From Halopseudomonas xiamenensis (lineage in GTDB: Bacteria; Pseudomonadota; Gammaproteobacteria; Pseudomonadales; Pseudomonadaceae), in contig NZ_JACLGO010000007.1 in assembly GCF_014219065.1 (NCBI RefSeq), positions 62,001 through 126,000 on the forward strand: a DNA stretch of 64,000 bases, given 5' to 3'. How positions within the stretch are numbered: position 1 is the stretch's first letter; the number at the start of each line of letters is the position of its first letter. The notes below the pieces were generated by a model. That model worked only from the letters and a program-made list of their open reading frames with translations, did not search any database and was not told the origin of the DNA. This document shows positions 1,631-60,768 of this stretch, piece by piece. A program made the position numbers and the translations under genes.

Positions 1631-3421
1631 ATGCCCGACTACAAAGCCCCGCTGCGCGATATGCGTTTCGTCATGGATGAAGTGTTCGATTTTGCCGCCG
1701 GTTACCAGACCCACGGTCTGACCGATGCGAGCCCTGACCTGGTGGATGCGATCCTGGAGGAAAGCGCCAAGTTCGCAGGGGAAGTACTCGCACCGCTGAA
1801 CCGTACCGGTGACGAGGAAGGTTGCCACTTCGACGATGGCGTGGTGACCACGCCCAAGGGCTTCAAGGAAGCCTATCAGCAGTACGTGGACAACGGCTGG
1901 GCGGCGATGAGCGGTTCGGTCGAGTTCGGCGGCCAGGGCCTGCCGGCTTCGCTGGGGCTGGTGGTCAACGAAATGATCGCCTCGGCCAACTATGCCTGGA
2001 GCATGTACCCGGGGCTGACCCATGGTTGCGCTGCGGCGATCCGCGCCCACGGCAGCCAGGAGCAGAAGGAGCTGTACCTGAACAAGCTGGTGCCCGGCCA
2101 CTGGACCGGCACCATGTGCCTGACCGAGCCGCATTGCGGTACCGACCTGGGGCTGATCAAGACCCGCGCGGTGCCCCAGGCCGATGGTACCTATTCGGTC
2201 ACCGGCACCAAGATCTTCATTTCCTCCGGTGAGCACGACATGGCCGAGAACATCGTGCACCTGGTGCTGGCCAAGCTGCCTGACGCGCCGGCCGGCACCA
2301 AGGGTATCTCGCTGTTTATCGTGCCCAAGTTCCTGCCTGACGCCAATGGCGAGAAGGGCGAGCGCAACGCGGTCAAGTGTGGTTCGATCGAGCACAAGAT
2401 GGGCATCAAGGCCTCGGCTACCTGCGTGATGAACTTCGATGGCGCCACTGGCTTCCTGATCGGCGAGGTCAACAAGGGTCTGGCCTGCATGTTCACCATG
2501 ATGAACAGCGCCCGCCTGGGCACCGGTATGCAGGGGCTGTGTCATGGCGAGGCGTCCTACCAGAACGCGCTGGCCTATGCCAAGGATCGCCTGCAGATGC
2601 GTTCGCTGTCTGGCGCCGCGGAGCCGGACAAGGCGGCGGACCCGATCATAGTGCACCCGGATGTGCGCCGCATGCTGCTGACCATGAAGGCCTTCAACGA
2701 GGGCAACCGGGCACTGGCCTATTACACCGCGCAGTTGCTGGATAACGCGCACTATTCCAAGGATGAGGCGGTTCGCGCCAATGCCGAGGATCAACTGGCA
2801 TTCCTGACGCCGATCTGCAAGGCATTCATGACCGAGACCGGTCTGGAGGCAACCCTGCTGGGCATGCAGGTGTTCGGCGGCCATGGTTACATCCGCGAAT
2901 GGGGTCAGGAGCAGCAGGTGCGTGACTGCCGGATCGCGCCTATTTATGAAGGTACCAACGGCATCCAGGCGCTGGACCTGCTCGGCCGCAAGGTGCTGAT
3001 GAGCCAGGGCAAACTGCTCGGGGCCTTCTCCCGTGAGGTACAGCAATTCTGTGAGGCCAATACGGGCAACGGTCAGTTGGCCGACTACTTCGGCAAGTTG
3101 GCAGCACTGAACACCCAGTGGGGCGAGTTGACCAAGCAGGTCATGGTCAAGTCTATGCAGAACCGCGAGGAAGTCGGGGCAGCATCGATGGACTTCCTGA
3201 TGTTCTCCGGTTACGTCATCCATGCCTTCTTCTGGCTGAAGATGGCGGTGGTGGCGCAGCAGAAACTGGAGGCTGGCGCAGTTGATGCCGGCTTCTACCA
3301 GGCCAAGCTGGCGACCCAGGAGTTCTTCTTCAAGCGCCTGCTGCCGCGTGCCCAGGCACATGTGGAAGCGCTTGAGGCGGGGGCTGATACGCTGATGCAG
3401 CTGGGTGCCGATCAGTTCTGA
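1631..3421 (+). CDS. Acyl-CoA dehydrogenase with N- and C-terminal extension domains (DmdC/FadE-like)
   Basis: This FAD enzyme oxidises an acyl-CoA to the 2-enoyl-CoA and passes electrons to ETF. The 596-aa length and the start MPDYKAPLRDMRFVMDEVF mark the long subfamily (AcylCoA_DH_N plus extra C-terminal domain) that includes 3-methylmercaptopropionyl-CoA dehydrogenase and Pseudomonas PA0506/PA0508-like enzymes. Visible motifs are the substrate/FAD loop MCLTEPHCGTDLG, the GHGYIREWG segment and IYEGTNGIQALDL, which carries the usual catalytic Glu. It is closely similar along its length to the product at 18401-20188; in relatives such paralogues are often neighbours. The exact substrate cannot be read from sequence; medium- or long-chain acyl-CoA is the default guess. 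Confidence 0.92.
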   Translation: MPDYKAPLRDMRFVMDEVFDFAAGYQTHGLTDASPDLVDAILEESAKFAGEVLAPLNRTGDEEGCHFDDGVVTTPKGFKEAYQQYVDNGWAAMSGSVEFGGQGLPASLGLVVNEMIASANYAWSMYPGLTHGCAAAIRAHGSQEQKELYLNKLVPGHWTGTMCLTEPHCGTDLGLIKTRAVPQADGTYSVTGTKIFISSGEHDMAENIVHLVLAKLPDAPAGTKGISLFIVPKFLPDANGEKGERNAVKCGSIEHKMGIKASATCVMNFDGATGFLIGEVNKGLACMFTMMNSARLGTGMQGLCHGEASYQNALAYAKDRLQMRSLSGAAEPDKAADPIIVHPDVRRMLLTMKAFNEGNRALAYYTAQLLDNAHYSKDEAVRANAEDQLAFLTPICKAFMTETGLEATLLGMQVFGGHGYIREWGQEQQVRDCRIAPIYEGTNGIQALDLLGRKVLMSQGKLLGAFSREVQQFCEANTGNGQLADYFGKLAALNTQWGELTKQVMVKSMQNREEVGAASMDFLMFSGYVIHAFFWLKMAVVAQQKLEAGAVDAGFYQAKLATQEFFFKRLLPRAQAHVEALEAGADTLMQLGADQF

Positions 3422-18400: not shown

Positions 18401-20188
18401 ATGGCCGAGTACCAAGCCCCCCTGCGTGATATCCGTTTCGTTCTGAATGAGACATTTGCGGCCGATCAGCTGTGGCAGAGCCTGCCAGGCCTGAACGGTG
18501 CGATCGACGCCGAGACAGCCGACGCTATGCTGGAAGAGGCCGGCAAGATCACCTCGCAGATCATCGCGCCGCTCAACCGTAACGGTGACGAAGAGGGTGC
18601 CCAGTGGAATGACGGCGTGGTAACCACTCCGGCCGGCTTCAAGCAAGCCTACGCTACCTATGCCGAAGGCGGCTGGGTGGGGCTGGCGGGCAACCCCGAG
18701 TACGGCGGACTGGGCATGCCCAAGGCCCTCGGCGTACAGGTCGAGGAAATGGTCTACGGTGCCAACAGCAGCTTCGCCCTGTATATCGCCCTGACCGCCG
18801 GCAGCACCTTGGCGCTGGATGCCCATGGTAGCGAAGAACTCAAGCAAACCTACCTGCCGAACATGTATGCCGGCACCTGGGCCGGGACCATGTGCCTGAC
18901 CGAGCCGCATGCCGGTACCGATCTGGGCATCATCCGCACCAGGGCGGTCCCGCAGGACGACGGCAGCTACTCGGTGACCGGCACCAAGATCTTCATCACC
19001 GGCGGCGAGCACGACCTGACCGAGAACATCATCCATCTGGTGCTGGCCAAGCTGCCCGACGCGCCGGCCGGGCCCAAGGGTATCTCGCTGTTCCTGGTGC
19101 CCAAGTTCCTGGTCAACGAGGATGGCAGCCTGGGTGAACGCAATGCGGTCAGCTGTGGCTCGATCGAGCACAAGATGGGGATCAAGGGCTCGGCCACCTG
19201 CGTGATGAACTTCGACGGTGCCAGGGGCTACCTGATCGGGGAACTGAACAAGGGCCTGAATGCCATGTTCACCATGATGAACTATGAGCGCCTGTCGATC
19301 GGCATCCAGGGTATCGGTTGTGCAGAGGCGTCCTACCAGAGCGCGGTGGCCTATGCCCGCGAGCGCATCCAGAGTCGCGCTCCGACCGGCGCGGTGCAAC
19401 CGGACAAGGCGGCCGACCCGATCATAGTGCATCCCGATGTGCGCCGCATGCTGCTGACCATGAAGGCCATGACCGAGGGTAGCCGGGCCTTCTCGACCTA
19501 CGTCGGCATGCAACTGGATACCAGCAAGTTTGCTGAGGACGAGCAGATCCGCAAGAAGGGCGAGGATCTGGTCGCGCTGCTGACGCCGGTGGCCAAGGCC
19601 TTCTTCACCGATGTCGGCTTCGACAGCTGCGTGCATGGCCAGCAGGTGTTCGGTGGTCATGGCTACATCCGTGAATGGGGCCAGGAGCAGTTGGTGCGCG
19701 ACGTGCGCATCGCGCAGATCTATGAAGGCACCAATGGCATCCAGGCGCTGGACCTGATGGGCCGCAAGACCGTGGCCAATGGCGGCGCCTTCTTCAAGGT
19801 GTTCGCGGACGAGATTCGGCAGTTTATTGCCGATAACGGTGCGCAGCCGATGGCCGAGTTCGTGCAGCCGCTGCAGGCCGCGCTGGATAACCTGGAGCAA
19901 CTGACGGCGGAAGTGATCGAGCGCAGCCGAGCCAACCCCAATGAAGTGGGTGCTGCCTCGGTGGAATACCTGCACACCTTCGGCTACACCGCCTACGCCT
20001 ACATGTGGGCGCGGATGGCCAAGGCAGCGCTGGCGGCAGTGGACAATGACAGCGATGGTTTCTACCAGGCCAAGCTGTCTACCGCGCGCTTCTACTTCAA
20101 GCGTCTGCTGCCGCGTATCCACGCGCTGAGCGCGTCGGTGCGTGCCGGCAGTGAGGTGTTGTTCGAGCTGGATGCGGCGCAGTTCTGA
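18401..20188 (+). CDS. Second acyl-CoA dehydrogenase, paralogue of the one at 1631-3421
   Basis: A 595-aa protein with the same architecture: N-terminal MAEYQAPLRDIRFVLNETF, flavin loop MCLTEPHAGTDLG, GHGYIREWG and IYEGTNGIQALDL with the catalytic Glu. Several nucleotide blocks are also shared with the first copy. Two such genes are commonly neighbours in Pseudomonas, so the intervening 15 kb may be inserted. Role: first oxidation step of acyl-CoA breakdown, with ETF as acceptor; chain-length preference is not readable. A strong terminator follows about 190 bases downstream. Confidence 0.92.
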   Translation: MAEYQAPLRDIRFVLNETFAADQLWQSLPGLNGAIDAETADAMLEEAGKITSQIIAPLNRNGDEEGAQWNDGVVTTPAGFKQAYATYAEGGWVGLAGNPEYGGLGMPKALGVQVEEMVYGANSSFALYIALTAGSTLALDAHGSEELKQTYLPNMYAGTWAGTMCLTEPHAGTDLGIIRTRAVPQDDGSYSVTGTKIFITGGEHDLTENIIHLVLAKLPDAPAGPKGISLFLVPKFLVNEDGSLGERNAVSCGSIEHKMGIKGSATCVMNFDGARGYLIGELNKGLNAMFTMMNYERLSIGIQGIGCAEASYQSAVAYARERIQSRAPTGAVQPDKAADPIIVHPDVRRMLLTMKAMTEGSRAFSTYVGMQLDTSKFAEDEQIRKKGEDLVALLTPVAKAFFTDVGFDSCVHGQQVFGGHGYIREWGQEQLVRDVRIAQIYEGTNGIQALDLMGRKTVANGGAFFKVFADEIRQFIADNGAQPMAEFVQPLQAALDNLEQLTAEVIERSRANPNEVGAASVEYLHTFGYTAYAYMWARMAKAALAAVDNDSDGFYQAKLSTARFYFKRLLPRIHALSASVRAGSEVLFELDAAQF

Positions 20189-20592: not shown

Positions 20593-21792
20593 ATGGCCAA
20601 GATCAAACTCACCAAGTCCGCAGTCGATGCGGCACAACCTCAGGCGCAGCCCATCGAGCTGCGCGACACCCTCGTTCCCGGCTTCCTGTGCAAGATCACG
20701 CCGGCCGGCCGCAAGGTGTTCATGCTCCAGTACCGGACGAACGCCGGCGAGCGTCGCAAGCCCGCGCTGGGCCAGTACGGCGAACTGACCGTCGAACAGG
20801 CCCGTTCGCTGGCGCAGGAATGGCTGGCCCAGGTGCGCCGGGGCGGCGATCCGGCAGCGGACAAGGCCGAAGCGCGCAAGGCGCCGACGGTCAAGGAACT
20901 GTGCGTGCAGTTCATGGAGGACTACTCCAAACAGCGCAACAAGCCCAGCACACAGAAAGGCTACCAGAGCGTCATCGACCGCAACATCATCCCGATGATC
21001 GGCCGCCTGAAAGTCCGGGACGTGAAGCGCCCGGACATCGCCGGGATGATGAAGAAGATGGCGCACAAGCCAGCCGACGCGAACCGCACGTTCGGCGTCA
21101 TGCGTCGGATGTTCAACCTGGCCGAAGTGTGGGGCTACCGTTCCGACGGCACGAATCCATGCCGCCATGTCCCGATGTATCCCAACGGCAAAGCCACCCA
21201 CCTCATCAGCGACGAGGACATGGGGCGAATCTTCCGCCAACTCGACAAGCTGGAGGCGGAGGGGCTGGAGAACTACGTCATTCCCCTAGCGATCCGCTTG
21301 CAGTTCGAGTTTGCCGGCCGCCGCTCCGAAATCGTCGGCCTGCAATGGGATTGGGTCGATCTGGAGAGCCGGCGGGTGGTCTGGCCCGACAGCAAGACCG
21401 GCTGCATGTCGAAGCCCATCAGCGAGGAAGCCTACCGACTTCTCTCGACGGCCCCACGGCTGGAAGACTGCCCGCACGTCCTGCCATCGCCGAGCCGTCC
21501 AGGGCAGCACCTGACCACGGGCGAGTATTACAACGGCTGGAGCCGCGTCCTCAAGGCGGCAGGTGCGACGCATGTGGGGACGCACGGCATTCGCCATCGC
21601 TCGGCCACTGACATTGCCAACTCCGGCATTCCGGTCAAGGTCGGCATGGCGCTCACTGCGCACAAGACCGTGGCGATGTTCATGCGCTACGTCCACACCG
21701 AGGATGATCCGGTGCGCCAGGCGGCCGAACTGGTGGCGAACCGTCGAAAGACCATCACCGGGGCGCGGCGTGCCGAGGAGGCAGCGGCATGA
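20593..21792 (+). CDS. int: Tyrosine integrase of the element
   Basis: A 399-aa site-specific recombinase that excises and integrates the element. The N-terminal arm/DUF4102-like part (MAKIKLTKSAVDAAQPQ... LPGF-type ELRDTLVPGFLCKITPAGRKVF) is followed by a SAM-like core-binding domain and the catalytic domain with Arg in FAGRRSEIVGLQW, HGIRHRS, the second His in LTAHKT and the nucleophile Tyr in FMRYVHTED. The start is set by AAGGAGTCAGCT. It overlaps the next gene by 4 bases (ATGA). Its position at one end of the element, reading inward, is the Tn4371-family layout. Confidence 0.95.
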   Translation: MAKIKLTKSAVDAAQPQAQPIELRDTLVPGFLCKITPAGRKVFMLQYRTNAGERRKPALGQYGELTVEQARSLAQEWLAQVRRGGDPAADKAEARKAPTVKELCVQFMEDYSKQRNKPSTQKGYQSVIDRNIIPMIGRLKVRDVKRPDIAGMMKKMAHKPADANRTFGVMRRMFNLAEVWGYRSDGTNPCRHVPMYPNGKATHLISDEDMGRIFRQLDKLEAEGLENYVIPLAIRLQFEFAGRRSEIVGLQWDWVDLESRRVVWPDSKTGCMSKPISEEAYRLLSTAPRLEDCPHVLPSPSRPGQHLTTGEYYNGWSRVLKAAGATHVGTHGIRHRSATDIANSGIPVKVGMALTAHKTVAMFMRYVHTEDDPVRQAAELVANRRKTITGARRAEEAAA

Positions 21793-22955
21793 GCAAGAAG
21801 ACGCCTCCGGCGGCGGGGAAAAGCCCCGCCGCCTTGCCGGCCGGCTATGCCGGCATCCACGGCGGCATCGTCGAATTGCTCGATGCTGCGCGCCAGTCGG
21901 CGGTCCGCAGCGTCAATGCGCTGATGACGGCCAGCTACTGGGAAATCGGCCGCCGCATCGTGGAGGCCGAACAGCAGGGCAAGCGGCGCGCGGGCTACGG
22001 CGAACAGTTGATTGCCCGGCTGTCCGCTGACCTGACCACGCGCTTCGGGCGTGGGTTCAGTGCGGACAATCTGGAGAACATGCGTCGGTTCTTCCTCGCG
22101 TACCCCTGGTCTGCAATTTCCGAGACACTGTCTCGGAAATCTGGCAACGAGCTGGCTGCGGTGAAATCCGAGGCAGTGTCTCGGAAATTAGCTCTCTCCG
22201 AACTGGCGCAGGTGTTCCCGCTGCCGTGGTCGGCTTACGTCCGGCTGCTGTCGGTCAAGGACGACCATGCCCGTCAGTTCTATGAGGCCGAAGCCCTACG
22301 CGGGGGCTGGAGCGTGCGCCAGCTTGACCGGCAGATCGGCAGCCAGTTCTACGAGCGCACGGCGCTGTCCAAGGACAAGGCAGCGATGCTGGCGAAAGGT
22401 GCGGTGCCCAAGCCGGCGGATGCCGTCACGCCCGACGACGCGATCAAAGACCCCTATGTGCTGGAGTTTTTGGACCTCAAGGACGAGTATTCGGAGTCCG
22501 ATCTTGAGCAAGCCTTGATCCGGCGACTGGAATACTTTCTGCTGGAGCTGGGCGAAGGGTTCACCTTCGTGGGACGGCAGCGCCGGTTGCGCATCGACCA
22601 GACATGGTATCGGGTGGACCTGCTGTTCTTCCATCGCAAGCTGCGCTGCCTGGTCATCATCGACTTGAAGCTGGGCAGCCTGACCCACGCGGACGTGGGC
22701 CAGATGCACATGTACTGCAACTATGCCAAGGAGCACTGGGCGTATTCCGACGAGAATCCGCCCGTGGGCCTCATCCTCTGCGCCGACAAGGGCCACGCGT
22801 TGGCGCGGTACGCCTTGGAGGGGTTGCCTACCAAGGTCATGGCGGCCAACTATCGAACCGTGCTGCCGGATGCCGAATTGCTGCAACAAGAGCTTGAGCG
22901 CACGCGGCTCATACTGGAGTCTCGCAGCGGGATTCATCCTGAGACCGGTCAATGA
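21789..22955 (+). CDS. DUF1016 (YhcG-type) PD-(D/E)XK nuclease-family protein
   Basis: A 388-aa protein with an N-terminal helical DUF1016 region (ALMTASYWEIGRRIVEAEQQGKRRAGYGEQLI) and a C-terminal PD-(D/E)XK-like domain: Asp277 in YRVDLLFFHRKL and Asp292-x-Lys294 in VIIDLKLGSL. Members are common on mobile DNA near integrases and in restriction or defence loci; the biochemical role is uncertain. Residues around 110-140 form a linker repeating SE-x-x-SRK, encoded by a palindrome and a third repeat copy. It overlaps int, so it probably travels with the integrase rather than with the following cassette. Confidence 0.85.
   Translation: MSKKTPPAAGKSPAALPAGYAGIHGGIVELLDAARQSAVRSVNALMTASYWEIGRRIVEAEQQGKRRAGYGEQLIARLSADLTTRFGRGFSADNLENMRRFFLAYPWSAISETLSRKSGNELAAVKSEAVSRKLALSELAQVFPLPWSAYVRLLSVKDDHARQFYEAEALRGGWSVRQLDRQIGSQFYERTALSKDKAAMLAKGAVPKPADAVTPDDAIKDPYVLEFLDLKDEYSESDLEQALIRRLEYFLLELGEGFTFVGRQRRLRIDQTWYRVDLLFFHRKLRCLVIIDLKLGSLTHADVGQMHMYCNYAKEHWAYSDENPPVGLILCADKGHALARYALEGLPTKVMAANYRTVLPDAELLQQELERTRLILESRSGIHPETGQ
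22116..22140. repeat. Perfect 12-bp palindrome inside the DUF1016 gene
   Basis: ATTTCCGAGACA-C-TGTCTCGGAAAT. A third copy of one arm (GTGTCTCGGAAAT) lies at 22177-22189. All three are in frame and encode the repeated SRK-type linker. Confidence 0.8.
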
Positions 22956-22963
22956 TAGCGGGC

Positions 22964-23090
22964 GCATCCCGGCGTACCGCCGTCGGGCTCGCGGGCTGCG
23001 CCTCGCGCTTCGTGCCGAATCCGCGGCCATCCGGCTTTGATCCCGATCCCTGATGCCTCCGGCCCTTGAGGGCTTACGCGCTTTGCTTGC
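22964..23090. repeat. Direct repeat R1 (left flank of the defence cassette)
   Basis: A GC-rich non-coding block starting GCATCCCGGCGT and ending GCGCTTTGCTTGC. It is largely repeated at 28348-28467 and in weaker form at 33643-33748. The two strong copies bracket the RHH-ATPase-GHKL genes. Confidence 0.75.
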
Positions 23091-23230: not shown

Positions 23231-23268
23231 GCTGGTGATCGAGTTCCATATTGGTTGATCCGCCGTTT

Positions 23269-23460
23269 ATGCCTCAATTGCAACCGATCAAGCGCTTCAC
23301 AGTCTCCCTTGATGTCGAGGACTACGAGGCTTTGCGCAAGCTGGCTGAGGCGCAACGTCCGCCGTTGCCGCTCCAGTACGTTGTGCGCTTGGCCATCCGG
23401 CGCTTTCTGGATCAGCCCGAGGGTACGGTTCTTCGGCGCATTGAGGACGACACACAGTGA
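23269..23460 (+). CDS. Small ribbon-helix-helix-like DNA-binding protein
   Basis: A 63-aa protein starting MPQLQPIKRFTVSLDVEDYEALRKLAEAQ, that is a beta strand (KRFTVSL) then two helices, ending near AIRRFLDQPEGTVLRRIED. This is the CopG/Arc-type shape. It precedes the large ATPase gene by 57 bases in the same direction, so it is probably the autoregulator of the cassette. Tandem repeats upstream support that. An upstream in-frame start at 23251 is possible. Confidence 0.65.
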   Translation: MPQLQPIKRFTVSLDVEDYEALRKLAEAQRPPLPLQYVVRLAIRRFLDQPEGTVLRRIEDDTQ

Positions 23461-23517
23461 AGCGAACAATGAAATTGGCTATGCCGATATAAAGGATGCG
23501 GTGCAGCGGGGGGGAGT

Positions 23518-26136
23518 ATGACGGTCCTGCAAGAAATACTTGAATGGTCTCAAGGCCGCCCAGCGTGGCAACGCGACGCGCTACGTCGGCTCGTACTCAA
23601 TGGCGAACTCTCCGACGATGACATCCGCGCACTCACCGAAGTTTGCAAAAGCGCGCATGGCCTCGCTGATCAGCAGGAAACCGCTCCCCTCGACACGGAA
23701 CATGTACCCGACACAACAGCAGGTGCTGCCCCTGTTTCTCTGGTATCAATCTTCCATCATCGCGGCGTGAATGCGCTGGCCGAGAACCAGACGCTCAACT
23801 TCGCACCTGGTCTCACCGTGGTTTATGGTGATAACGGCGCAGGCAAGACGGGCTATATCCGAATCCTCAAGGGCGCTTGCCGGGCGCGCGGGCAGGAGCA
23901 AATCCTGGGCAATGTCGTCTCCGGCACAGCACCACTCGCCCCGGTGGTTGCGATTAAGTACAAGATCGGGACCGAACCTGAACCACGGGAATGGACCGGG
24001 GCCGGCGAGGATGAGTTTGTTTCGCGCGTGAGCGTATTCGACACGCAATGCGCTGCCGTCTACCTGACCGAAAAAACCGATGTTGCCTTCCGGCCCTTCG
24101 GCTTGGACCTGTTCGACAAGCTCGTGAAGGCGTGTAAGGCCGTTCGCGCAGAACTCGAAAGCGAACAGCGCGCGCTTGCGTCAAACGCTCTCGTCGCTGT
24201 TCAGGCGCAGGTTCCCGAAGGTACAGCAGTTGCGAAGTTTCTAACGAACATCAGCTCCCTTACCAAGCCGGATGCCGTAGAGGCACTCGCGCGTCTCTCC
24301 CCGGAGGACGAGACTCGGCTTGCGCTTCTGGAGAAGTCGCTGCTCGACTTGCAGGCCAATGATCCCGAGAAGCTGATCCGGCAACTGACCCTACGCGCGG
24401 GTCGGGTTCAGACACTGGCCCGGCACCTCAAGGAGGTGGAAGCGGCGCTTTCGGTGGAGGCCGTGGCTGCCGTGTTCGATGCACGGACAGAAGGCCGCCG
24501 CAAGAGCGAGGAAGCAAAACGGCTGCGGGAGGCAACGTTTCCCGAAAGGATGCTGCCTGGAACCGGCACTGATCCCTGGATCGCGCTTTGGGAAGCGGCG
24601 CGTCAGTTCTCGCAGGAGTTGGCCTATCCAGGCAAGGCATATCCGGTCGTAGAAGACCGCGCTCATTGCGTCCTGTGCCAGCAGGACCTCGATCACGCAG
24701 CGTCCCATAGGCTCAAGCAGTTTGAAGCGTTCGTGGCTTCGACGACCGAACGTGAACTCCGGCAGATTAGGGAGAAATTCGCGCGTTTGCGAAAGGGCTT
24801 CACCGATCTCAGGACAACAACCGAAGCTGTTGACGAGGCGCTCAAGGAAATCCGCATCGAGCATGAGGCTGTTGCGGACACCATAGCCGCAGCGCTTTCA
24901 GTCAACGAGAATCGCCGCAAGACTGTCGCCGCAGCCCTCGGCGAAGACAAGGACCTCTCCCCCGAGTGTCCCGCCCTCGTGTCGGCCTCTCGTGACGCCG
25001 AGATGTTGGCTCAGGAAATCGAGGCTCGGATCAAGACGCTGCGCACCAGCCCCACCGATGAAACCCGCAAGCGCATGACAGCCGAGGTGCAGGAACTGCG
25101 CGCTCGTAAGATTCTGGCGACACATCAGCAGACTGTTCTTGATGATATCGAGCGTCGGAAGAAATACGCCGCTTACGGACTGTGCATCGACGAAACCAAG
25201 ACACAGACGATTACGCAGAAGAGCACTGCCGTCACGAAAACCGTCGTATCCCAGAAGCTCAAGCGGAGTTTCAAAGACGAACTGGTCAATCTGTCTTTCG
25301 GTCACGTCGAGGTCGAGTTAAAAGAACTTGGCGGTGCGGACGGCGTCTTCTATCACAAGCTTGCTCTTACGCGTGCGCCTGGCGTTGATTTGCCCAAAGT
25401 TGTAAGCGAGGGCGAGCAGCGCTGTCTCTCCATTGCTGCGTTCTTTGCGGAACTCAGCACCGCCGATGACCCCTCAGGCATCGTGTTCGATGATCCCGTT
25501 TCTTCGCTTGACTACCAGTGGCGCCAAGGTGTGGCGCGGCGCTTGGTGTTGGAGGCCAACACCCGACAGGTTATCGTCTTTACCCACGATGTCGTCTTCC
25601 TGCTTCTCCTCAAGCAATTCGCCGAGGAGTTGGGTGTCGATCAGTTTGACCAGCACGTCCGGTTCCTGTCCAAGGGTGCAGGTGTATGCACCGAGGAGCT
25701 TCCCTGGGTTGCGCTGCCGGTGAAGAAAAAAATCGGCTACCTGAAAAACGGCTGGCAAATAGCCGACAAACTTTCTCGCGAAGGTCATCAGGACGCCTAC
25801 GAGAAAGACGCCAAGTATCTTTACGGTTTGCTGCGGGAAGCGTGGGAGCGCGCCCTCGAAGAGGTACTTTTGGGCGGAGTGGTCGAGCGCTACAGACCGA
25901 GTGTTCAGACACAACAAGTTGCCCAGATCGCCGACATCACTCCCGAAGACTGCAAAACTGTTGAGACGGCCATGACAAAATGCTCGAAATGGCTGCCTGG
26001 CCATGATCAAGCTGCGGCGGCCCGTGCGCCGATACCCGGTACGGCGGAACTCAAGGCCGACATCGAAGCACTAGAAAACTGGGTGACGGCAGTACGCAAA
26101 CGCCGCAAGAAACCCGCGGAGGTGGCATCCGCATGA
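23518..26136 (+). CDS. Large SMC/RloC-like ABC ATPase with CxxC motif (putative defence protein)
   Basis: An 872-aa AAA_13-type ATPase. Residues 104-111 form the Walker A motif GDNGAGKT. Long helical stretches follow, with a central CVLC at 384-387 that recalls the zinc hook of Rad50 and RloC. The C-terminal half has the ABC signature-like SEGEQR (630-635), Walker B IVFDDP with D658/D659, the D-loop SSLD (662-665) and an H-loop in VIVFTHDVVF. The C-terminal 180 residues have no motif I recognise. RloC is an anticodon nuclease that responds to phage restriction escape, but I see no proof of that activity here. The gene overlaps the next by 4 bases, so the two products probably work together. 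Confidence 0.75.
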   Translation: MTVLQEILEWSQGRPAWQRDALRRLVLNGELSDDDIRALTEVCKSAHGLADQQETAPLDTEHVPDTTAGAAPVSLVSIFHHRGVNALAENQTLNFAPGLTVVYGDNGAGKTGYIRILKGACRARGQEQILGNVVSGTAPLAPVVAIKYKIGTEPEPREWTGAGEDEFVSRVSVFDTQCAAVYLTEKTDVAFRPFGLDLFDKLVKACKAVRAELESEQRALASNALVAVQAQVPEGTAVAKFLTNISSLTKPDAVEALARLSPEDETRLALLEKSLLDLQANDPEKLIRQLTLRAGRVQTLARHLKEVEAALSVEAVAAVFDARTEGRRKSEEAKRLREATFPERMLPGTGTDPWIALWEAARQFSQELAYPGKAYPVVEDRAHCVLCQQDLDHAASHRLKQFEAFVASTTERELRQIREKFARLRKGFTDLRTTTEAVDEALKEIRIEHEAVADTIAAALSVNENRRKTVAAALGEDKDLSPECPALVSASRDAEMLAQEIEARIKTLRTSPTDETRKRMTAEVQELRARKILATHQQTVLDDIERRKKYAAYGLCIDETKTQTITQKSTAVTKTVVSQKLKRSFKDELVNLSFGHVEVELKELGGADGVFYHKLALTRAPGVDLPKVVSEGEQRCLSIAAFFAELSTADDPSGIVFDDPVSSLDYQWRQGVARRLVLEANTRQVIVFTHDVVFLLLLKQFAEELGVDQFDQHVRFLSKGAGVCTEELPWVALPVKKKIGYLKNGWQIADKLSREGHQDAYEKDAKYLYGLLREAWERALEEVLLGGVVERYRPSVQTQQVAQIADITPEDCKTVETAMTKCSKWLPGHDQAAAARAPIPGTAELKADIEALENWVTAVRKRRKKPAEVASA

Positions 26137-28136
26137 GCAATGTCAACATCAAACGTGCCGTCGAGAATATTCGGGCGAACACGACCGTTTATACGCCCGT
26201 CGTCGAGATGATCGTTAATGCGATTCAGGCGATTGACGAAGCTGGCCGCAAAGACGGGAAAGTTCAGGTCCGCGCGCAGCGGAGTGCCCAGATCGAACAG
26301 GATGGAAGCTTGCCCGAGGTTACGGGCTTCGATATTGAGGATAACGGCATCGGCTTTACTGACGCGAACCGTAACTCCTTCGACACGCTCTACACCGACC
26401 TCAAGATCGCCGAAGGCGGCAAAGGATTCGGCCGATTCACTGGACTCAAGTATTTCGAAGACCTGCATGTCAAGAGTGACTACCACGATGGCATTGCCTT
26501 CAAAGCCCGCAGCTTTTCAATGGGCAAGGAGCACGAGATTATCGTGCACGAGAAGGTCGCACCAAGCGACAAGCAGGACACTGGCACAGTGGTCACTCTG
26601 GCGCCTCTGAAGGCGGGGCGCTCCTTCGACAAGAAGCTTTCGACCATCGCCCGCAGCCTCGCGGAGCGGCTGCTGCCGTATTTCATCACGCAAGATTACG
26701 TTTGCCCGGACATTGTTCTTTCAGAGCAGGACGGAAGCGGTGCGATCCGCTTGAATGACTTTGTGAGCAACGAATTGTCTGCCGTTATCCGGGAGATCGG
26801 CGTTGATCGCAAAACCTTCACGATCAAGGCTTCCGATACGGAGGAGGAATTTCTGGTTCGTGTGTTCAAACTCTACTCCCCTCGCAACCAGAAAAGCCGA
26901 ATCAGCCTTGTCGCGCACAAGCGGGAAGTCTCAGGGGCCGCGATCCACAAATATATCCCAGAGTTTGTGGACGAATTCTTCGAGAAAGACCGAGACGGAG
27001 AGATTGACAGCGCACGTAATTACATCATCAAAGCTTACGTTTTCGGGCCTTATCTGGACCGCAATGTTTCGCTGGAGCGTGGTGGGTTCGAGTTTCAAAT
27101 GGAGAGCGACCTGATTCTCGGGATTGGGCAAACCCAGATCGAGCAGGACGCTGCCTCTATCGCCCGTGAGGCGATGGGCGCAGATATTACGTTCCGGCAG
27201 GAAAAGAAGAAAGAGCGTGTGCAGTCCTATGTCGATGAAGAAGCTCCGTGGCACAAGGCCATTCTGGAAAGGATCGACCTGAACGGGATGCCCTATAACC
27301 CAAGCAATGAAGAGATCGAAACACGGTTGCAAAAGGAGAAATTTGCACAAGAGATTGCCATCAAGCGCGATGTGGCGAAGCTAATGGCTGAGACGAATTT
27401 CGAGGATGTGCAGGATAGCGTGATCGAGATCGTCAATAAAATCTCCGGCACCAGCAAGAATGATCTGATTCACTACATCGCATTACGCCGAAAAATCCTA
27501 GACATCTTCGGCAAGAGTCTTGAAATAGATGAATCTGGAACGTATTCCTCCGAAGGAGTTGTTCACGACATCATCTTTCCACGCAAGGGCGATACCGATA
27601 TCACGTCCTTTCACGATCACAATCTCTGGATCGTAGACGAACGCCTGAATTTCACTACCTACGTTTCCTCCGACCTTCCACTCAACGGTGGGAATACTGA
27701 TCGCCCGGACCTGTTGGTCTACAACAAGCGGGTTCTGTTCCGAGGTGATAACGAAGCGAGCAACCCGATTACGATCTTCGAGTTCAAGAAGCCGCAGCGT
27801 GACGACTTCGTGAATCCGTCTTCCCGAGAGGACCCGATCCAGCAGATAGTGCGCTACGTGAACGATATCCGGGACGGCAAGTACAAGACACCCGAAGGCC
27901 GAAAGATTCTTGTTGCCGAGAACACGCCGTTCTACGGCTACGTTGTGTGCGATCTGACGGCTAAAGTAGAAACCTGGCTTGAACGCGAAAAAAACTTTAC
28001 GCCCATGCCCGACCGGCTCGGCTGGTTCCAGTGGATGGGCAACATCAATCTCTATGTTGAGGTCATAAGCTGGGACAAAGTGCTGAAAGACGCGAAGATG
28101 CGCAGCCAGATTTTTTTCCAGAAGCTGGGAATCTAG
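26133..28136 (+). CDS. GHKL (Hsp90/MutL-type) ATPase with C-terminal PD-(D/E)XK-like motif
   Basis: A 667-aa protein. The N-terminal GHKL ATPase motifs are clear: N-box VEMIVNAIQAIDEA, DIEDNGIGF (residues 67-75) and GGKGFGRFTGLKYF. The middle is charged and unassigned. The C-terminal part has RPDLLVYN (Pro525-Asp526) and ITIFEFKKP (Glu550-x-Lys552), the spacing of a PD-(D/E)XK nuclease core, although no nuclease assignment can be proven by eye. Coupled translation with the SMC-like ATPase suggests a two-protein complex. Base composition is visibly less GC-rich than the element backbone, a sign of separate origin. Confidence 0.72.
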   Translation: MSNVNIKRAVENIRANTTVYTPVVEMIVNAIQAIDEAGRKDGKVQVRAQRSAQIEQDGSLPEVTGFDIEDNGIGFTDANRNSFDTLYTDLKIAEGGKGFGRFTGLKYFEDLHVKSDYHDGIAFKARSFSMGKEHEIIVHEKVAPSDKQDTGTVVTLAPLKAGRSFDKKLSTIARSLAERLLPYFITQDYVCPDIVLSEQDGSGAIRLNDFVSNELSAVIREIGVDRKTFTIKASDTEEEFLVRVFKLYSPRNQKSRISLVAHKREVSGAAIHKYIPEFVDEFFEKDRDGEIDSARNYIIKAYVFGPYLDRNVSLERGGFEFQMESDLILGIGQTQIEQDAASIAREAMGADITFRQEKKKERVQSYVDEEAPWHKAILERIDLNGMPYNPSNEEIETRLQKEKFAQEIAIKRDVAKLMAETNFEDVQDSVIEIVNKISGTSKNDLIHYIALRRKILDIFGKSLEIDESGTYSSEGVVHDIIFPRKGDTDITSFHDHNLWIVDERLNFTTYVSSDLPLNGGNTDRPDLLVYNKRVLFRGDNEASNPITIFEFKKPQRDDFVNPSSREDPIQQIVRYVNDIRDGKYKTPEGRKILVAENTPFYGYVVCDLTAKVETWLEREKNFTPMPDRLGWFQWMGNINLYVEVISWDKVLKDAKMRSQIFFQKLGI

Positions 28137-28347: not shown

Positions 28348-28467
28348 GCATCCCGGCGTTCCGCCGTCGGGCTCGCGGGCTGTGCCCCGCGCTTCGTGCC
28401 GAATCGCGGCCATCCGGCTTTGATCCCTGGCGCCTCCGGCCCTTGAGGGCCTGCGCGCTCCGCTTGC
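28348..28467. repeat. Direct repeat R2 (right flank of the defence cassette)
   Basis: Near copy of R1, sharing for instance CCGCCGTCGGGCTCGCGGGC and CGCGCTTCGTGCCGAATC, in the same orientation. Confidence 0.75.
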
Positions 28468-28666: not shown

Positions 28667-29176
28667 ATGACGCAACTGTCCTTTTCCTCGTTCGATTCCT
28701 CTCTGCTGGTGCGTGACGCGCAGGGGCGCTACCTGCCGGCGTCGGTGGATCAGATTCTTGATGCCGCGCGCCATGCCATCGACCAGAAAATGCAGCGGGG
28801 CATGTCCTTCACCTCACCAACCATCGTCAAGGAGTATCTGCGCACCAAGCTGGCTGGCTTCGAGCACGAAGTCTTCGCGGTGCTGTTCCTCGATTCGCAG
28901 CACTGCCTGATCGAATACATCGAGATGTTCCGGGGCACCATCGACAGTGCGTCGGTGTATCCGCGCGAGGTGGTCAAGGAAGCGCTGCGACTCAACGCGG
29001 CGGCGGTGATCTTCTCGCATAACCACCCCAGCGGGAATCCCGAGCCGAGCCAGGCTGACAGGCAGATAACCCAGCGGCTCAGAGATGCGCTTGCGCTGGT
29101 GGACGTGCGCACGTTGGATCACATCGTCGTCGGCGGTGAGTCCACAGAGTCCTTCGCCGAACGGGGGCTGCTTTAA
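28667..29176 (+). CDS. radC: RadC-like JAB-domain protein of the element
   Basis: A 169-aa JAB/MPN domain protein with the complete metal motif SHNHPSGNPEPSQAD (H-x-H-x10-D) and Glu in the N-terminal EHEVFAVLFLD strand. It lacks the helix-hairpin-helix part of chromosomal RadC. Short RadC proteins are a fixed part of Tn4371-type and many other integrative elements; the molecular function is not settled. The ATG follows the duplicated leader R4 (CCGGAGCACGATC). A terminator follows. Confidence 0.9.
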   Translation: MTQLSFSSFDSSLLVRDAQGRYLPASVDQILDAARHAIDQKMQRGMSFTSPTIVKEYLRTKLAGFEHEVFAVLFLDSQHCLIEYIEMFRGTIDSASVYPREVVKEALRLNAAAVIFSHNHPSGNPEPSQADRQITQRLRDALALVDVRTLDHIVVGGESTESFAERGLL

Positions 29177-34756: not shown

Positions 34757-36211
34757 TCAGCTTGGCCGAGATACTTCAGCTCCATATGGCAGCTTGACCT
34801 TGCCTCCAGACTTGATTGGTGTGTTGTAAACCACCTTCAGCAGTCGTTTCGGCACTAACATTTGCTGAGAAAGCTCATCCTCAAATTGCTCGCGCTCAAG
34901 AGTTTGATAGCGAACCTTCTTGTCATCACCATCATCAAATGGGTCATCTTCGTCATCAAGATAGTTTTTGCCGCTGATGCAAACGCCTTCAATTATTTTG
35001 TTATCCCCAATCTGTACGTCTGCGGTCACGGCTTGCCCTTTTCCTGGGATAGCAAACATACGGTTTGATTGGTTGGCTAGCGCTCCAGCAATAAAGTCGA
35101 AGCTATCTTTGAAATCTGGATACTGCTCCAGCTCGAAGACTTCATTAAAGAAGTTGATCTTAGGCTGTTTACGAAACTCACCTTTTGAGTCGAAGAAAAT
35201 CTCAAAAAGAATTCCATCAAGAATAGCTTTCCGCTTCTCCGGCCTCATGCCATTGGTGTGCTTGTGGAATTTCTGAATCCAGTCTATAGCGGAATTTGCG
35301 GAGCCATTCGCCGCCTGCAAAATGTTGCGTCCAAGCACGAAAAGGCTATCTGCACTGGCTCCATTAAGTTTTTCCGATGTTAGTGCATCCAACGCAGGAT
35401 TTTGGGTATACCAGTTATGACTTTTCAGGGCCTGGATTGTTCGGTGTGACAGCTTGCTCTCATCAATGACAAAGGTTTTGTCTTTGATTGCAGCCACACT
35501 GTAGTTTTCTATGCTGGCTGCTGCGCTAAGGTGAAAGTAGAATTCGCCTGCTAGTGATGTATGTTCCCAGGAAATCTGCTTTTGTTTCGTAGCGGCTCCC
35601 AGTGTATTCCGCACACGTTTAAACATTGCCTCTACTGGGAGGTCTGGCTCCTCAATGTGCTTCAGAAGTGCCTCTGTGTAAAGACCGTTACGGCGAGCGC
35701 CATCACTGGCAAACTGGCCCGGAGACGTAGCGAAAGCTATGAGTGTTCCACGAGGGGCATAGACCGGCGCCAAGCTGCGAGGTTTTCCGCGCCATTTACG
35801 CTCAAACGGATTATCCCGGCAAGCGTCAAGAATGATAATGTTGGTACGTGTGGCGCCATCTTTCGGCTCCATACGCTTTATTACTTCATCTAAGGACAGC
35901 GCCCCAGTTTCGATATCCGTTTTGTCTTCGGCTTCGGTATCCTTGGCGATCAGATAATTAACGCCATCTACCTCGACTCCGTGGCCAGCGAAGAAGAAAA
36001 CTGAAACGGCCCCACCATCATTGGCAGATTTCTCGAAGGATTTGATCGCCTTTTTCATCTCCTTGAAGGTCGCATTAATCAGCTTTAAGACATTAAAGCC
36101 GCCATCGGTAAGAACTTTGGCAATATCTTCGGCGTCGTTGGTTGGGTTCTTTAAATTGCCGCCGGAGTCGTAGAGAGCATTACCAATAACAAGGGCATTT
36201 AGGCGTGGCAT
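34757..36211 (-). CDS. Caspase-family cysteine protease with an unassigned C-terminal domain
   Basis: A 484-aa protein. Residues 1-230 are a caspase/peptidase C14-like domain: LVIGNALYDSG at the N-terminus, His77 in FFFAGHGVEVDG and Cys131 in IIILDACRDNPF form the catalytic dyad. The remaining 250 residues are soluble, end in a short acidic run (DDEDDPFDDGDDKK) and are not recognised. Bacterial proteins of this kind act in defence or programmed death, but many are unstudied. The gene is clearly less GC-rich than the backbone, so it is imported cargo. It follows the XRE gene by 122 bases on the same strand and is probably controlled by it. Confidence 0.8.
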   Translation of the reverse strand: MPRLNALVIGNALYDSGGNLKNPTNDAEDIAKVLTDGGFNVLKLINATFKEMKKAIKSFEKSANDGGAVSVFFFAGHGVEVDGVNYLIAKDTEAEDKTDIETGALSLDEVIKRMEPKDGATRTNIIILDACRDNPFERKWRGKPRSLAPVYAPRGTLIAFATSPGQFASDGARRNGLYTEALLKHIEEPDLPVEAMFKRVRNTLGAATKQKQISWEHTSLAGEFYFHLSAAASIENYSVAAIKDKTFVIDESKLSHRTIQALKSHNWYTQNPALDALTSEKLNGASADSLFVLGRNILQAANGSANSAIDWIQKFHKHTNGMRPEKRKAILDGILFEIFFDSKGEFRKQPKINFFNEVFELEQYPDFKDSFDFIAGALANQSNRMFAIPGKGQAVTADVQIGDNKIIEGVCISGKNYLDDEDDPFDDGDDKKVRYQTLEREQFEDELSQQMLVPKRLLKVVYNTPIKSGGKVKLPYGAEVSRPS

Positions 36212-47317: not shown

Positions 47318-51697
<4,380 letters not shown>

Positions 51698-56578: not shown

Positions 56579-58573
56579 ATGCAGGGTCAGGGCGTACTGT
56601 TCGGACAGATCACCGCCGTTTTCGGCATCGTGATCGCCGGCATATGGAGTGCAACGCAATGGACAGCCGCCGCCCTGGGTTACCAACTACGCCTTGGCTC
56701 GCCCTGGTTCGACGTTTTCGGCACGCCGGTCTATCACCCCTGGCGGCTGTTCGAGTGGTGGTTCTTCTTCGGTGCCTACGCGCCGGAGGTCTTCAACATC
56801 GGCGGGGCGATTGCCGGCAGCAGCGGCCTGCTGGCCGTGTGCGTCGCCATCGGCATGTCGGTATGGCGTTCGCGGCAGTCCCGCCTGGTCACGACCTACG
56901 GTTCGGCGCGCTGGGCTGAACCTGCCGACATTCGCAGTGCTGGGCTGACGCAGCCGGTCGGTGTTTTCCTCGGCCAGCATGACGGCGAGTACCTGCGCCA
57001 TGAAGGCCCGGAACACGTCCTGACCTTCGCACCCACCCGCTCTGGTAAAGGGGTCGGGCTGGTCGTGCCCACCTTGTTGAGCTGGCCCGCATCGGCCGTC
57101 ATCCACGACATCAAGGGCGAGAACTGGCAGATCACCGCTGGCTGGCGCTCGCGCTTCTCGCACTGCCTGCTGTTCAACCCGACCGATGCGCAGTCGGCCG
57201 GCTACAACCCGCTGCTGGAAGTGCGGCGCGGCGCGCATGAGGTGCGCGACGTGCAGAACATCGCCGACATTCTGGTCGATCCCGAAGGCGCGCTGGAACG
57301 GCGCAATCACTGGGAAAAGACCAGCCATGCGCTGCTGGTCGGCGCCATCCTGCATGTGCTCTATGCCGGCGAGGACAAGACGCTGCGCGGCGTCGCCAAT
57401 TGCCTGTCCGATCCGGCGTGCCCGTTCGAGCTGACCCTGCACCGTATGATGACGACGAAGCACCTGGGTGATGCGCCGCATCCCGTCGTCGCCTCCGCCG
57501 CGCGCGAAGTGCTCAACAAGGCGGACAACGAACGCTCCGGCGTGCTCTCCACCGCCATGTCCTTCCTGGGCCTGTACCGCGACCCGACGGTGGCGGAAGT
57601 CACCTCGCGCTGCGACTGGCGTATCGCCGACCTGATCGCCGCCGAGCATCCGGTGTCGCTGTATCTGGTGGTGCCGCCTTCGGACATCAGCCGCACCAAG
57701 CCGCTGATCCGGTTGATCCTCAACCAGATCGGGCGTCGGCTGACTGAATCGCTCGACGGTTCCGACGGCATCGAGCGCCGCCACAAGCTGCTGTTGATGC
57801 TCGACGAGTTCCCGGCGCTGGGCCGACTCGACTTCTTCGAGACGGCCCTGGCCTTCATGGCCGGCTACGGCATTCGCAGCTTCCTCATCGCGCAGTCGCT
57901 CAACCAGATCGACAAAGCCTACGGCCAGAACCATTCGATTCTGGACAACTGCCATGTGCGGGTGACGTTTGCCACCAACGACGAACGCACCGCCAAGCGC
58001 ATTTCCGAAACGCTGGGCACCGCCACCGAGCTGCGCGCGCAGCGCAACTATGCCGGCCACCGGCTCGCGCCGTGGCTCGGCCACCTGATGGTGTCGCGCC
58101 AGGAAACCGCGCGCCCGCTGCTGACGCCGGGCGAGGTCATGCAGCTTCCTCCCGACGAATCCGTGGTGATGGTGTCGAGCGTGGCGCCGATCAAGGCGAA
58201 GAAGCTGCGCTATTACGCCGACGCGAACTTCCAGCAGCGCGTGCTCCTGCCACCGGCGCTCGCCGCTGGGCACTACGCCGATGCGCCGCCCTCGCGGCCG
58301 GATGACTGGAGCGGCCTGGCGATTCCCGCCGTGCCGTCCACACCTGTCGCACAGGCCGAGGGCTTCGCCGCCACCGCCGATGACGGCGGGCCGCGCCGCC
58401 AGCCCGAACTGTCCGAAACCGTCGCCTACGACCCCGAGCCGGAAATCCCGGCCAGCGACCTGTCGCTGCTCGATGACGACGATTCGCCGCCTCTCCCGAG
58501 CCAGCTCGACCCGTCCATACAGCGCGTGGCGCGGCTGGCTTCCCTCGACCCCAACGACGGAATCGAACTATGA
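56579..58573 (+). CDS. traG: TraG/VirD4-type coupling protein
   Basis: A 664-aa inner-membrane ATPase that brings the relaxase-DNA complex to the mating channel. Two N-terminal spans (LFGQITAVFGIVIAGIW and the YAPEVFNIGGAIAGSSGLLAVCVAIGMSVW segment) precede the Walker A motif APTRSGKGVGL (from residue 151) and Walker B LLMLDEFPALGRLD; RSFLIAQSLNQI follows. The Asp/Glu/Pro-rich tail may contact the relaxase. It overlaps the next gene by 4 bases. Confidence 0.95.
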   Translation: MQGQGVLFGQITAVFGIVIAGIWSATQWTAAALGYQLRLGSPWFDVFGTPVYHPWRLFEWWFFFGAYAPEVFNIGGAIAGSSGLLAVCVAIGMSVWRSRQSRLVTTYGSARWAEPADIRSAGLTQPVGVFLGQHDGEYLRHEGPEHVLTFAPTRSGKGVGLVVPTLLSWPASAVIHDIKGENWQITAGWRSRFSHCLLFNPTDAQSAGYNPLLEVRRGAHEVRDVQNIADILVDPEGALERRNHWEKTSHALLVGAILHVLYAGEDKTLRGVANCLSDPACPFELTLHRMMTTKHLGDAPHPVVASAAREVLNKADNERSGVLSTAMSFLGLYRDPTVAEVTSRCDWRIADLIAAEHPVSLYLVVPPSDISRTKPLIRLILNQIGRRLTESLDGSDGIERRHKLLLMLDEFPALGRLDFFETALAFMAGYGIRSFLIAQSLNQIDKAYGQNHSILDNCHVRVTFATNDERTAKRISETLGTATELRAQRNYAGHRLAPWLGHLMVSRQETARPLLTPGEVMQLPPDESVVMVSSVAPIKAKKLRYYADANFQQRVLLPPALAAGHYADAPPSRPDDWSGLAIPAVPSTPVAQAEGFAATADDGGPRRQPELSETVAYDPEPEIPASDLSLLDDDDSPPLPSQLDPSIQRVARLASLDPNDGIEL

Positions 58574-59046
58574 GCCAATACCGCCTCAACCTGTTCATCC
58601 AGCCCGACCACGCCCGCCGTCTGGACGAGCTGGCCGCCAAGAAAGGCGTCTCCAAGTCGTCCATCGTCGCGGCGGCGCTCGCATCGTGGCTGTCGCCCGA
58701 TGCCGCCGACCAGCGCGAAGCAGCGATCGCCAAGCGGCTGGATCGCCTGTCGCGTCAGTTCGAGAAGCTGGAGCGCGACCAGAACATCCAGATCGAGGCG
58801 CTGGCGCTGTTCATCCGCTACTTCCTGACCGTGAGCACACCGCTTCCCGAAGCGCATCAGGAGGCAGCCCGTGCCCAGGGCAAGGCGCGCTTCGAGCAGT
58901 TCGTGGAGCAGCTTGGCCGCCATCTGCTGCGCGGACGCAGCCTGGTGCGCAACGTGGTGGAGGAACTGCACCCCCAGGATCATGAGTTCGGGGGGCGGAT
59001 GGAGGACGCGGCGGCGCTGGCCGAAGCGCGGGAGCGTGCCTCATGA
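58570..59046 (+). CDS. Ribbon-helix-helix (CopG-like) protein of the transfer operon
   Basis: A 158-aa protein. MSQYRLNLFIQPDHARRLDELAAKKGVSKSSIVAAALASWL is a ribbon-helix-helix domain; a long helical part follows (AIAKRLDRLSRQFEKLERDQNIQIEALALFIRYFL). It lies between traG and trbB with 4-base overlaps on both sides, as usual in this family. It probably regulates the transfer operon or assists at oriT. Confidence 0.85.
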   Translation: MSQYRLNLFIQPDHARRLDELAAKKGVSKSSIVAAALASWLSPDAADQREAAIAKRLDRLSRQFEKLERDQNIQIEALALFIRYFLTVSTPLPEAHQEAARAQGKARFEQFVEQLGRHLLRGRSLVRNVVEELHPQDHEFGGRMEDAAALAEARERAS

Positions 59047-60487: not shown

Positions 60488-60756
60488 GCGCGCCCGAGGA
60501 GTTCGCCGCCGGCTTCGAGGTGCCGCTGCATCGCTCGCTGACCGAGCTGATCCTGCTGGGCGGCGCGCCGCGCACGGTCGCCATCGCCAACGGCACTTTG
60601 GCCGCCGCCGTGGGCCTGGGCCTGCAACTGTGGATTGCCGGGGTCGTGCTCTGGGTGGTCGGCCACTCGCTGGCGGTATGGGGTGCGCGCGTCGATCCGC
60701 AGTTCATGCAGGTCTTCGCCCGGCACATCAAGCACAAGCCGCTGCTGGACGTGTAG
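60484..60756 (+). CDS. trbD: TrbD (VirB3-like)
   Basis: A 90-aa inner-membrane protein with the TrbD/VirB3 pattern EVPLHRSLTELILLGGAPRTVAIANGTLAAAVGLGLQLWIAGVVLWVVGHSLAVWGARVDPQFMQVFARHI. It anchors the TrbE ATPase in the channel. It ends 12 bases before trbE. Confidence 0.92.
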   Translation: MSAPEEFAAGFEVPLHRSLTELILLGGAPRTVAIANGTLAAAVGLGLQLWIAGVVLWVVGHSLAVWGARVDPQFMQVFARHIKHKPLLDV

Positions 60757-60768
60757 GAGGTCGCCGCG

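Follow-up and report, generated by a model that had tools for sequence, protein, structure and literature searches.

A mobile candidate defense cassette couples an RloC-like ATPase to a GHKL ATPase with a nuclease-type end

Introduction

Do two defense-related genes that overlap on a mobile element work as one system, or do they only share a place in the element? This question is raised by a cassette in Halopseudomonas xiamenensis (NCBI RefSeq assembly GCF_014219065.1), in which a ribbon-helix-helix (RHH) gene is followed by P0001, encoding an RloC-like Rad50/SMC ATPase, and by P0002, encoding a GHKL ATPase with a C-terminal PD-(D/E)xK-type end. We analyzed the cassette within 64,000 nucleotides of contig NZ_JACLGO010000007.1 (positions 62,001 to 126,000, forward strand), a stretch that we call the window and whose numbering is used throughout (Table 1). 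The stop codon of P0001 and the start codon of P0002 share the sequence ATGA, a 4-bp overlap. We hypothesize, with a probability of about 0.48, that this is a mobile two-gene anti-phage cassette in which P0002 would cut DNA first and P0001, as an RloC-type tRNase, would form the second line.

A first-pass annotation of this DNA had outlined the same cassette. Its gene coordinates, gene sizes and translational coupling agree with ours, as do the RHH gene ahead of the pair, the CxxC motif of an SMC-like ATPase, the PD...ExK end of a GHKL ATPase, the lowered guanine-plus-cytosine (GC) content relative to the host element and the bracketing direct repeats. It also took the pair to be defense-like and mobile, which our analysis supports. 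Published work is used here in excerpts of the papers cited.

Results

P0001 carries the motifs that define RloC

PADLOC family PDC-S06 matches P0001 over its full length (E=1.7e-230, residues 1-864 against positions 1-858 of the 858-position profile), and it also matches 24 of the 24 rows of our P0001 alignment A3. We tried an assignment to the GajA or LmuB type and rejected it, since among the 25 of 33 PADLOC families listed for P0001 the LmuB (2.2e-14) and GajA (about 1e-3) matches are partial only and far weaker than that to PDC-S06. Under PADLOC's criterion, neither P0001 nor P0002 scores as a signature protein of Gabija, Wadjet, Septu, Zorya or Lamassu. Pfam recognizes AAA_13 at residues 379-700 (E=1.3e-16). 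The AlphaFold2 model (mean predicted local distance difference test score, pLDDT, 84.9) resembles SMC, Rad50 and RecF heads with Z scores of 19.1-23.9 among the 50 matches listed, which cover residues 72-733, so that the C-terminal tail lies outside them. A sequence search of solved structures gave ATPase relatives and chance coiled-coil matches (60 of 70 listed), and no chain named RloC or Shedu stood among the listed solved-structure matches of either protein.

The published definition of RloC asks for a split ATPase of the Rad50 type, a zinc hook, 658-897 amino acids (aa) and the motif Arg-X3-Glu-X36-52-His (Davidov and Kaufmann 2008, PMC2610378), and the nuclease domain of RloC and PrrC has been placed in the HEPN superfamily (PMC3710099). 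P0001, with 872 aa, falls inside this range, and its tail pattern R773-x3-E777-x51-H829 fits the RloC motif. The zinc-hook CxxC (C384-x2-C387) is kept in 23 of the 23 A3 rows that reach it, the window's included, and so are the Walker A residues N106, G109 and K110 in the 23 rows that cover them. The signature residues S630, D658/D659 and H690, and the tail residues R773, E777, R791 and H829, are conserved in 24/24 rows. A3 omits five loci, which are either near-identical or cut (L006, L010, L015, L017) or carry an internal stop codon (L111); relatives from plasmids and from the G genomes are found only in the alignments A1 (P0001) and A2 (P0002). R773, E777 and H829 are also invariant in all 14 rows of A1, plasmid relatives included. 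Thus, since P0001 carries both the hook CxxC and the Arg-x3-Glu-x51-His pattern, it may be a tRNA-cutting effector, beyond a sensor of DNA. Judged by these motifs, RloC-type tRNase activity is likely, and P0001 is more likely to be such an effector than a mere DNA sensor that gates a nuclease, although its tail did not align with those of RloC-like proteins.

P0002 joins a GHKL ATPase to a PD-(D/E)xK-type end

The Pfam match of P0002 to HATPase_c (E=7.8e-5) falls just short of the cut-off, that to HSDR_N is weak and also short of it (E=0.013), and no PADLOC family matches at E up to 0.01. The AlphaFold2 model (mean pLDDT 81.5) resembles the ATPase modules of Hsp90, MORC and SMCHD1 over residues 1-390 (Z 16.6-18.6, 50 matches listed). 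Where the 50 matches listed from viral structure models bear a name, it is mostly that of a RIIA, topoisomerase or Hsp90-type GHKL protein. The sequence search of solved structures yielded weak matches only, for example to fimbrial proteins and topoisomerase VI.

Residues of both halves are strongly conserved. All 29 rows of the P0002 alignment A4 (which omits L006, L015, L077, L079, L090, L091 and L095) have the GHKL residues E25, N29, D70, G72, G74, G98 and G100 as well as the nuclease-type residues E474, D526, E550, K552 and Q571. The PD...ExK motif corresponds to P525-D526...E550-x-K552, with P525 kept in 25/29 rows. E25, N29, the DxGxG motif and the E474-D526-ExK-Q set are also kept in all 17 rows of A2. 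The C-terminus is predicted to form a helix (474-481), three strands (510-513, 527-530, 546-551), a second helix (568-580) and a further strand (600-605), and the PD-(D/E)xK core has the same order of helices and strands. The nuclease put forward by the first-pass annotation is backed by motif, by secondary-structure order and by the profile comparison below, while the matches of the fold search cover residues 1-390 only and leave the C-terminal domain outside.

Two described proteins resemble P0002. The paraMORC3 family combines GHKL and S5 with a C-terminal domain carrying E-D-ExK, either associated with restriction-modification (R-M) genes or standalone (Iyer et al. 2008, PMC2292703); in P0002 the fold comparison finds GHKL and S5, and the E-D-ExK motif is present. 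VcSduA combines GHKL with a Shedu-type nuclease; it gives protection from phages as a single gene and requires E27 and K557 for this (PMC12137116). In the wider family of P0002, the equivalent E and K stand exactly at 27/557 in one of 44 rows (L080) and at 27/556 in four more, an agreement by residue number alone that is only suggestive. A profile of the P0002 nuclease domain aligned with eight plasmid Shedu proteins at P=7.9e-4, with D, ExK and Q in register; its score is 33.4, whereas 60 column shuffles scored no higher than 24.1, the reversed profile 17.1 and the N-terminal part 11.9. This weak-to-moderate profile comparison suggests that the nuclease domain is remotely related to SduA.

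As a separate observation, a Vibrio fluvialis plasmid (L115, 2556-5950) carries a Shedu gene behind genes for an R-M methylase and specificity protein; the Shedu gene overlaps a P0002 relative by 4 bp, so that two Shedu-like nucleases are coupled within one operon.

The pairing recurs, and P0001 relatives exchange partners

A scan of genome contigs found P0001 at 14 loci, with identities of 72-94%. P0002 lies directly behind P0001 in four of them (L005, L006, L007, L015), and a decayed P0002 lies there in L014; in two loci the contig breaks off (L010, L017). In another four (L008, L009, L016, L018), R-M-type genes precede P0001 with the same ATGA overlap, and these relatives, coupled to type I-like R-M genes, are 72-85% identical to P0001. 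Neither partner is coupled to P0001 in L011, L012 and L013, although L012 has a gene of 238 aa 28 bp behind it. The coupled R-M genes that were scanned with Pfam are HsdR-type (ResIII, HSDR_N), KilA-N, N6_Mtase with Methylase_S, and a Methylase_S protein. The relatives of 84-85% identity (L008, L009, L018) follow an N6-methylase/specificity gene, assigned by Pfam in L009 and L018 and, in L008, by a start resembling those two.

A diverged pair (32% identity for P0001, 53% for P0002) is held by a Paraburkholderia terrae plasmid. In a quick tree of P0001, the paired state needs at least two changes. The plasmid P0001 is sister to L108 and the plasmid P0002 is sister to L073 rather than nearest to the window's copy; therefore, the pairing most simply arose twice, although both trees were built by a quick method, some P0001 rows have long branches, and an old pairing with repeated losses could likewise underlie the two changes. 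The L108 stretch ends 123 bp behind its P0001 gene, and the L070 and L071 stretches include 70 and 148 bp ahead of P0002.

P0002 matches, weak ones included and the own genome counted, occur in 4/96 genomes of relatives, 14/390 of the order sample and 10/398 of the phylum sample. P0001 matches occur in 34 of the 398 phylum-sample genomes, own included, many of them partial ATPase matches. Among plasmids we examined 30 of 268 records matching P0001 and 30 of 56 matching P0002. In viral contigs, relatives were missed when the single P0001 and P0002 sequences served as queries, and were found when alignments did. One P0002 relative, in Celeribacter, is coupled to an Eco57I-type R-M gene. An obligatory linkage of the two genes, which we considered, was rejected as too strict, given that most relatives have no partner in the stretch examined. 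Linkage elsewhere, which the first-pass annotation had set beforehand as a test, thus exists in four genomes and one plasmid; it is rare and not obligatory.

The cassette occupies a cargo spot of a mobile element

Table 1 Features of the cassette and its surroundings in the window
Feature	Coordinates	Strand	Evidence
Tyrosine integrase, 399 aa, host element	20593..21792	+	Pfam Phage_integrase E=3.3e-17, Arm-DNA-bind_3 E=4.1e-18
YhcG/DUF1016 PDDEXK nuclease, 388 aa, element backbone gene	21789..22955	+	Pfam YhcG_C E=9.1e-57; PADLOC PDC-S02
Left direct repeat	22964..23090		Repeat comparison; single matching stretch at empty sites L198, L199
Ribbon-helix-helix protein, 63 aa from ATG	23269..23460	+	Pfam RHH_1 E=2.4e-5
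P0001, RloC-like Rad50/SMC ATPase, 872 aa	23518..26136	+	PADLOC PDC-S06; AlphaFold2 model; motif columns
P0002, paraMORC3-type GHKL-S5 ATPase with C-terminal PD-(D/E)xK-type nuclease (predicted), 667 aa	26133..28136	+	Pfam, fold comparison, motif columns
Right direct repeat	28348..28467		Repeat comparison
radC-like gene, closes the cargo spot	28667..29176	+	Pfam RadC E=2.4e-45

The RHH reading frame, for which a longer start at 23251 exists besides the ATG, has copies of 88-93% identity in L005, L006, L007, L010 and L015, and its product is probably an autoregulator. The first-pass annotation had set the cassette directly beside the integrase; the region is right, and it omitted yhcG, which overlaps the integrase gene by 4 bp and sits between it and the cassette. 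The cassette is GC-poorer than its surroundings (P0001 0.587 and P0002 0.524, versus 0.648 for the integrase, 0.629 for yhcG, 0.610 for radC and 0.699 for parB). Two pairs of direct repeats bracket it, one of 58 nt at 95% identity (22964-23021 and 28348-28405) and one of 46 nt at 87% (23045-23090 and 28422-28467). A 26-nt core of the repeat, allowing up to three mismatches, occurs twice in the window; the mean number of matches over 100 shuffles is 0.00. Compared with three sister elements (L005, L006, L007), the ratio of nonsynonymous to synonymous substitution rates is 0.10-0.11 for P0001 and 0.055-0.063 for P0002, so both genes look to be under purifying selection.

The integrase, yhcG, RHH, P0001 and P0002 genes travel together in four further genomes at 83-96% identity, and Eoetvoesiella caeni and Thiomonas delicata have 14.5 kb in common at 99.98%. 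In stretches of Pseudomonas putida pTTS12 and of a P. aeruginosa plasmid (L198, L199), the order is integrase, yhcG, radC, with about 330 bp between the last two, and a single stretch at these empty sites matches both repeat copies of the window. In a further genome (G237), radC directly follows yhcG. Pseudomonas pBYT1-1 matches the two sides of the cassette at 96.7% (2.5 kb) and 98.7% (0.86 kb) identity and has a helix-turn-helix gene in the cassette's place. The empty sites in related plasmids and the other cargo in pBYT1-1 indicate that the interval from yhcG to radC is a cargo spot.

Other observations concern the same backbone. Behind its radC, pBYT1-1 (L200, 12070-13695) carries a reverse-transcriptase gene and a DUF2513 gene, possibly a retron, and in L201 an Eco57I-type R-M gene lies close to that position beside radC. 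Two radC copies flank the cassette in L006 (6989-7492 and 13141-13644) and in L015, which suggests repeated insertion or duplication at the spot. DNA like the integrase-yhcG segment occurs in 181 plasmid records, six of which cover at least 80% of the query. The window also contains type IV secretion coupling and TrbE/VirB4-type genes (56579-63216), and the element therefore looks conjugative. A resistance-nodulation-division efflux pump gene (ACR_tran) lies at 48557-51697. A gene for a caspase-domain protein (34757-36211, minus strand; Pfam Peptidase_C14 E=2.3e-36) lies where the window is richest in AT (GC about 0.50) and is possibly further defense or cell-death cargo. Two diverged copies of one gene (2015-3357 and 18791-20124), 16.8 kb apart and 73-81% identical over the matching pieces, are presumably acyl-CoA dehydrogenase paralogues.

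Discussion

How might the two proteins act together? RloC is activated by linear DNA and DNA double-strand breaks (PMC3874168), and it cuts tRNA (PMC2610378). Since DNA breaks switch on RloC proteins, the economical reading of the cassette would be DNA cleavage, followed by translation arrest if breaks accumulate or cleavage fails. In our model, the GHKL/S5 clamp of P0002 would dimerize on ATP around DNA and license its C-terminal nuclease, a step that we infer from its family and from the mechanism proposed for VcSduA. The Rad50-like ATPase of P0001, with its zinc hook, would sense DNA ends and then release a C-terminal tRNA (anticodon) nuclease, so that translation would stop. It would be triggered when P0002 breaks DNA or when the P0002 attack collapses. 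Both proteins would thus be nucleases directed against phage, one of them triggering or restraining the other. The two partner types of the P0001 lineage, R-M and the GHKL-nuclease, are both predicted DNA cutters, which fits this two-step reading.

Several results weigh against this reading. On the side of P0001, alignment of its tail profile by hhalign with the tails of six AAA_13 (RloC-like) proteins found no similarity, and the bare pattern R-x3-E-x36-52-H arises in 12% of shuffled tails. In A. baylyi, the R-M system neither silences RloC nor activates it (PMC3874168). On the side of P0002, none of 17 relatives has a match to Pfam SduA_C (DUF4263) with E of 0.1 or lower, with a plasmid Shedu protein as positive control matching at 1.3e-25, and the hhalign probability of the Shedu match is low (9% for the whole protein, 25% for the nuclease domain). 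Because of the missing SduA_C matches and the probability of only 25%, we describe P0002 as paraMORC3-type with a Shedu-like nuclease end and rejected its membership in Shedu by sequence hidden Markov model. As for the pairing, the genes of the Paraburkholderia pair stand 135 bp apart with no overlap and no RHH match, and a Thioclava plasmid carries both families about 22 kb apart, unpaired. A copy of the partner was found in 0/31 viral P0002 loci, in 0/14 viral P0001 loci and in 0/17 P0001 loci of the phylum sample (1.5-kb flanks); several of the stretches in these sets end near the gene.

The exchange of partners suggests a broader view, which we put forward tentatively. The RloC-like lineage may be an exchangeable second-strike module that stays coupled while type I-like R-M and GHKL/Shedu-like nuclease partners are swapped, and that would be triggered by the breaks made by its partner or by the partner's inhibition. 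If so, the RHH-RloC-GHKL-nuclease cassette of the window would be an R-M-free, self-contained version.

Alternatively, the cassette could be a stack of two autonomous defense genes in one cargo spot, transcribed together without functional coupling. Most relatives of P0001 and of P0002 are without the partner gene nearby: those of P0002, including most at 50% identity or more, stand alone or in viral and prophage contigs, and those of P0001 are solitary or have BREX or DSR1 genes next to them. On the radC side, related backbones hold different cargo, such as the reverse-transcriptase set and the Eco57I-type R-M gene. Simple stacking accords poorly, however, with the 4-bp translational overlap, with a pairing that most simply arose twice, with the relic of the pair in L014, and with the coupling of the P0001 lineage to R-M genes as well. 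We consider stacking doubtful, though a serious competitor.

A guard arrangement like that of PrrC appears improbable. P0002 would here keep the P0001 tRNase silent and free it when a phage inhibitor disables P0002. PrrC has been reported as invariably linked to, and silenced by, type Ic R-M (PMC3874168), and the N6-methylase/specificity genes coupled to the P0001 relatives of 84-85% identity would suit such a role. Against it speak L011, L012 and L013, where neither R-M genes nor P0002 are coupled to P0001 and such a silencer is therefore not obligatory, and the A. baylyi RloC, which its R-M system does not silence. The model of the first-pass annotation, in which P0001 would only sense or extrude DNA and gate cleavage by P0002 with no nuclease of its own, is very unlikely: it can claim the SMC/Rad50-like nature of P0001, the lack of detectable similarity of its tail to the six RloC-like tails, and the two-gene precedent of WonAB, in which an ABC ATPase and a PD-(D/E)xK protein are encoded separately (PMC12137116), yet most P0002 relatives have no P0001 nearby and R773, E777 and H829 are kept in 24/24 rows.

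How does the cassette compare with known systems? The first-pass annotation did not recognize it among the named ones, which holds for the pair; its halves belong to PDC-S06 with the RloC motif and to paraMORC3 with the architecture of VcSduA, and only one half, P0001, has a confident match to a known family, the candidate family PDC-S06. Going by PADLOC naming, we take PDC-S06 to be a candidate single-gene defense; P0001 matches it over its full length and differs in having a coupled partner. With RloC, P0001 shares the Rad50-like split ATPase, the zinc-hook CxxC, the length and the Arg-X3-Glu-X36-52-His tail; unlike RloC, its tail does not align with the six AAA_13 tails, and it is coupled to a GHKL-nuclease gene. 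P0002 shares GHKL, S5 and the C-terminal E-D-ExK with paraMORC3, for which the excerpt of PMC2292703 used here mentions no RloC-like partner.

VcSduA likewise combines a GHKL ATPase with a PD-(D/E)xK end, and E25 and K552 of P0002 correspond in kind to its E27 and K557. In contrast, the clade of P0002 is only about 30% identical to that of L080, the sole row with E27 and K557, P0002 has no SduA_C match, and a coupled pair stands here in place of single-gene protection. The combination of PrrC with type Ic R-M also couples a tRNase-type ABC ATPase to a DNA-cleaving system, as L008, L009, L016 and L018 would, whereas the putative DNA cutter in the window is a GHKL-nuclease and not R-M. WonAB is, like the cassette, a two-gene ATPase-plus-nuclease system on a mobile element; its WonA is an OLD-type ABC ATPase, its WonB a separate nuclease, and a GHKL part is absent (PMC12137116, as excerpted).

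Each half of the cassette thus belongs to a described defense-related family, and the translationally coupled pair seems new: we found no report of an RloC-GHKL-nuclease pair in the open literature searched, and one may exist in subscription papers or preprints. If the genes cooperate, a single transferable unit would unite Shedu/paraMORC3-type DNA cleavage with a tRNase of the RloC type, and the question of what RloC senses, and whether it teams up with a DNA cutter, would become testable. The R-M-coupled and GHKL-nuclease-coupled versions of one lineage, about 85% identical, offer a natural pair for partner swaps. If the genes do not cooperate, the cassette is still a clear example of defense cargo with empty sites in a plasmid or integrative-and-conjugative-element-type backbone.

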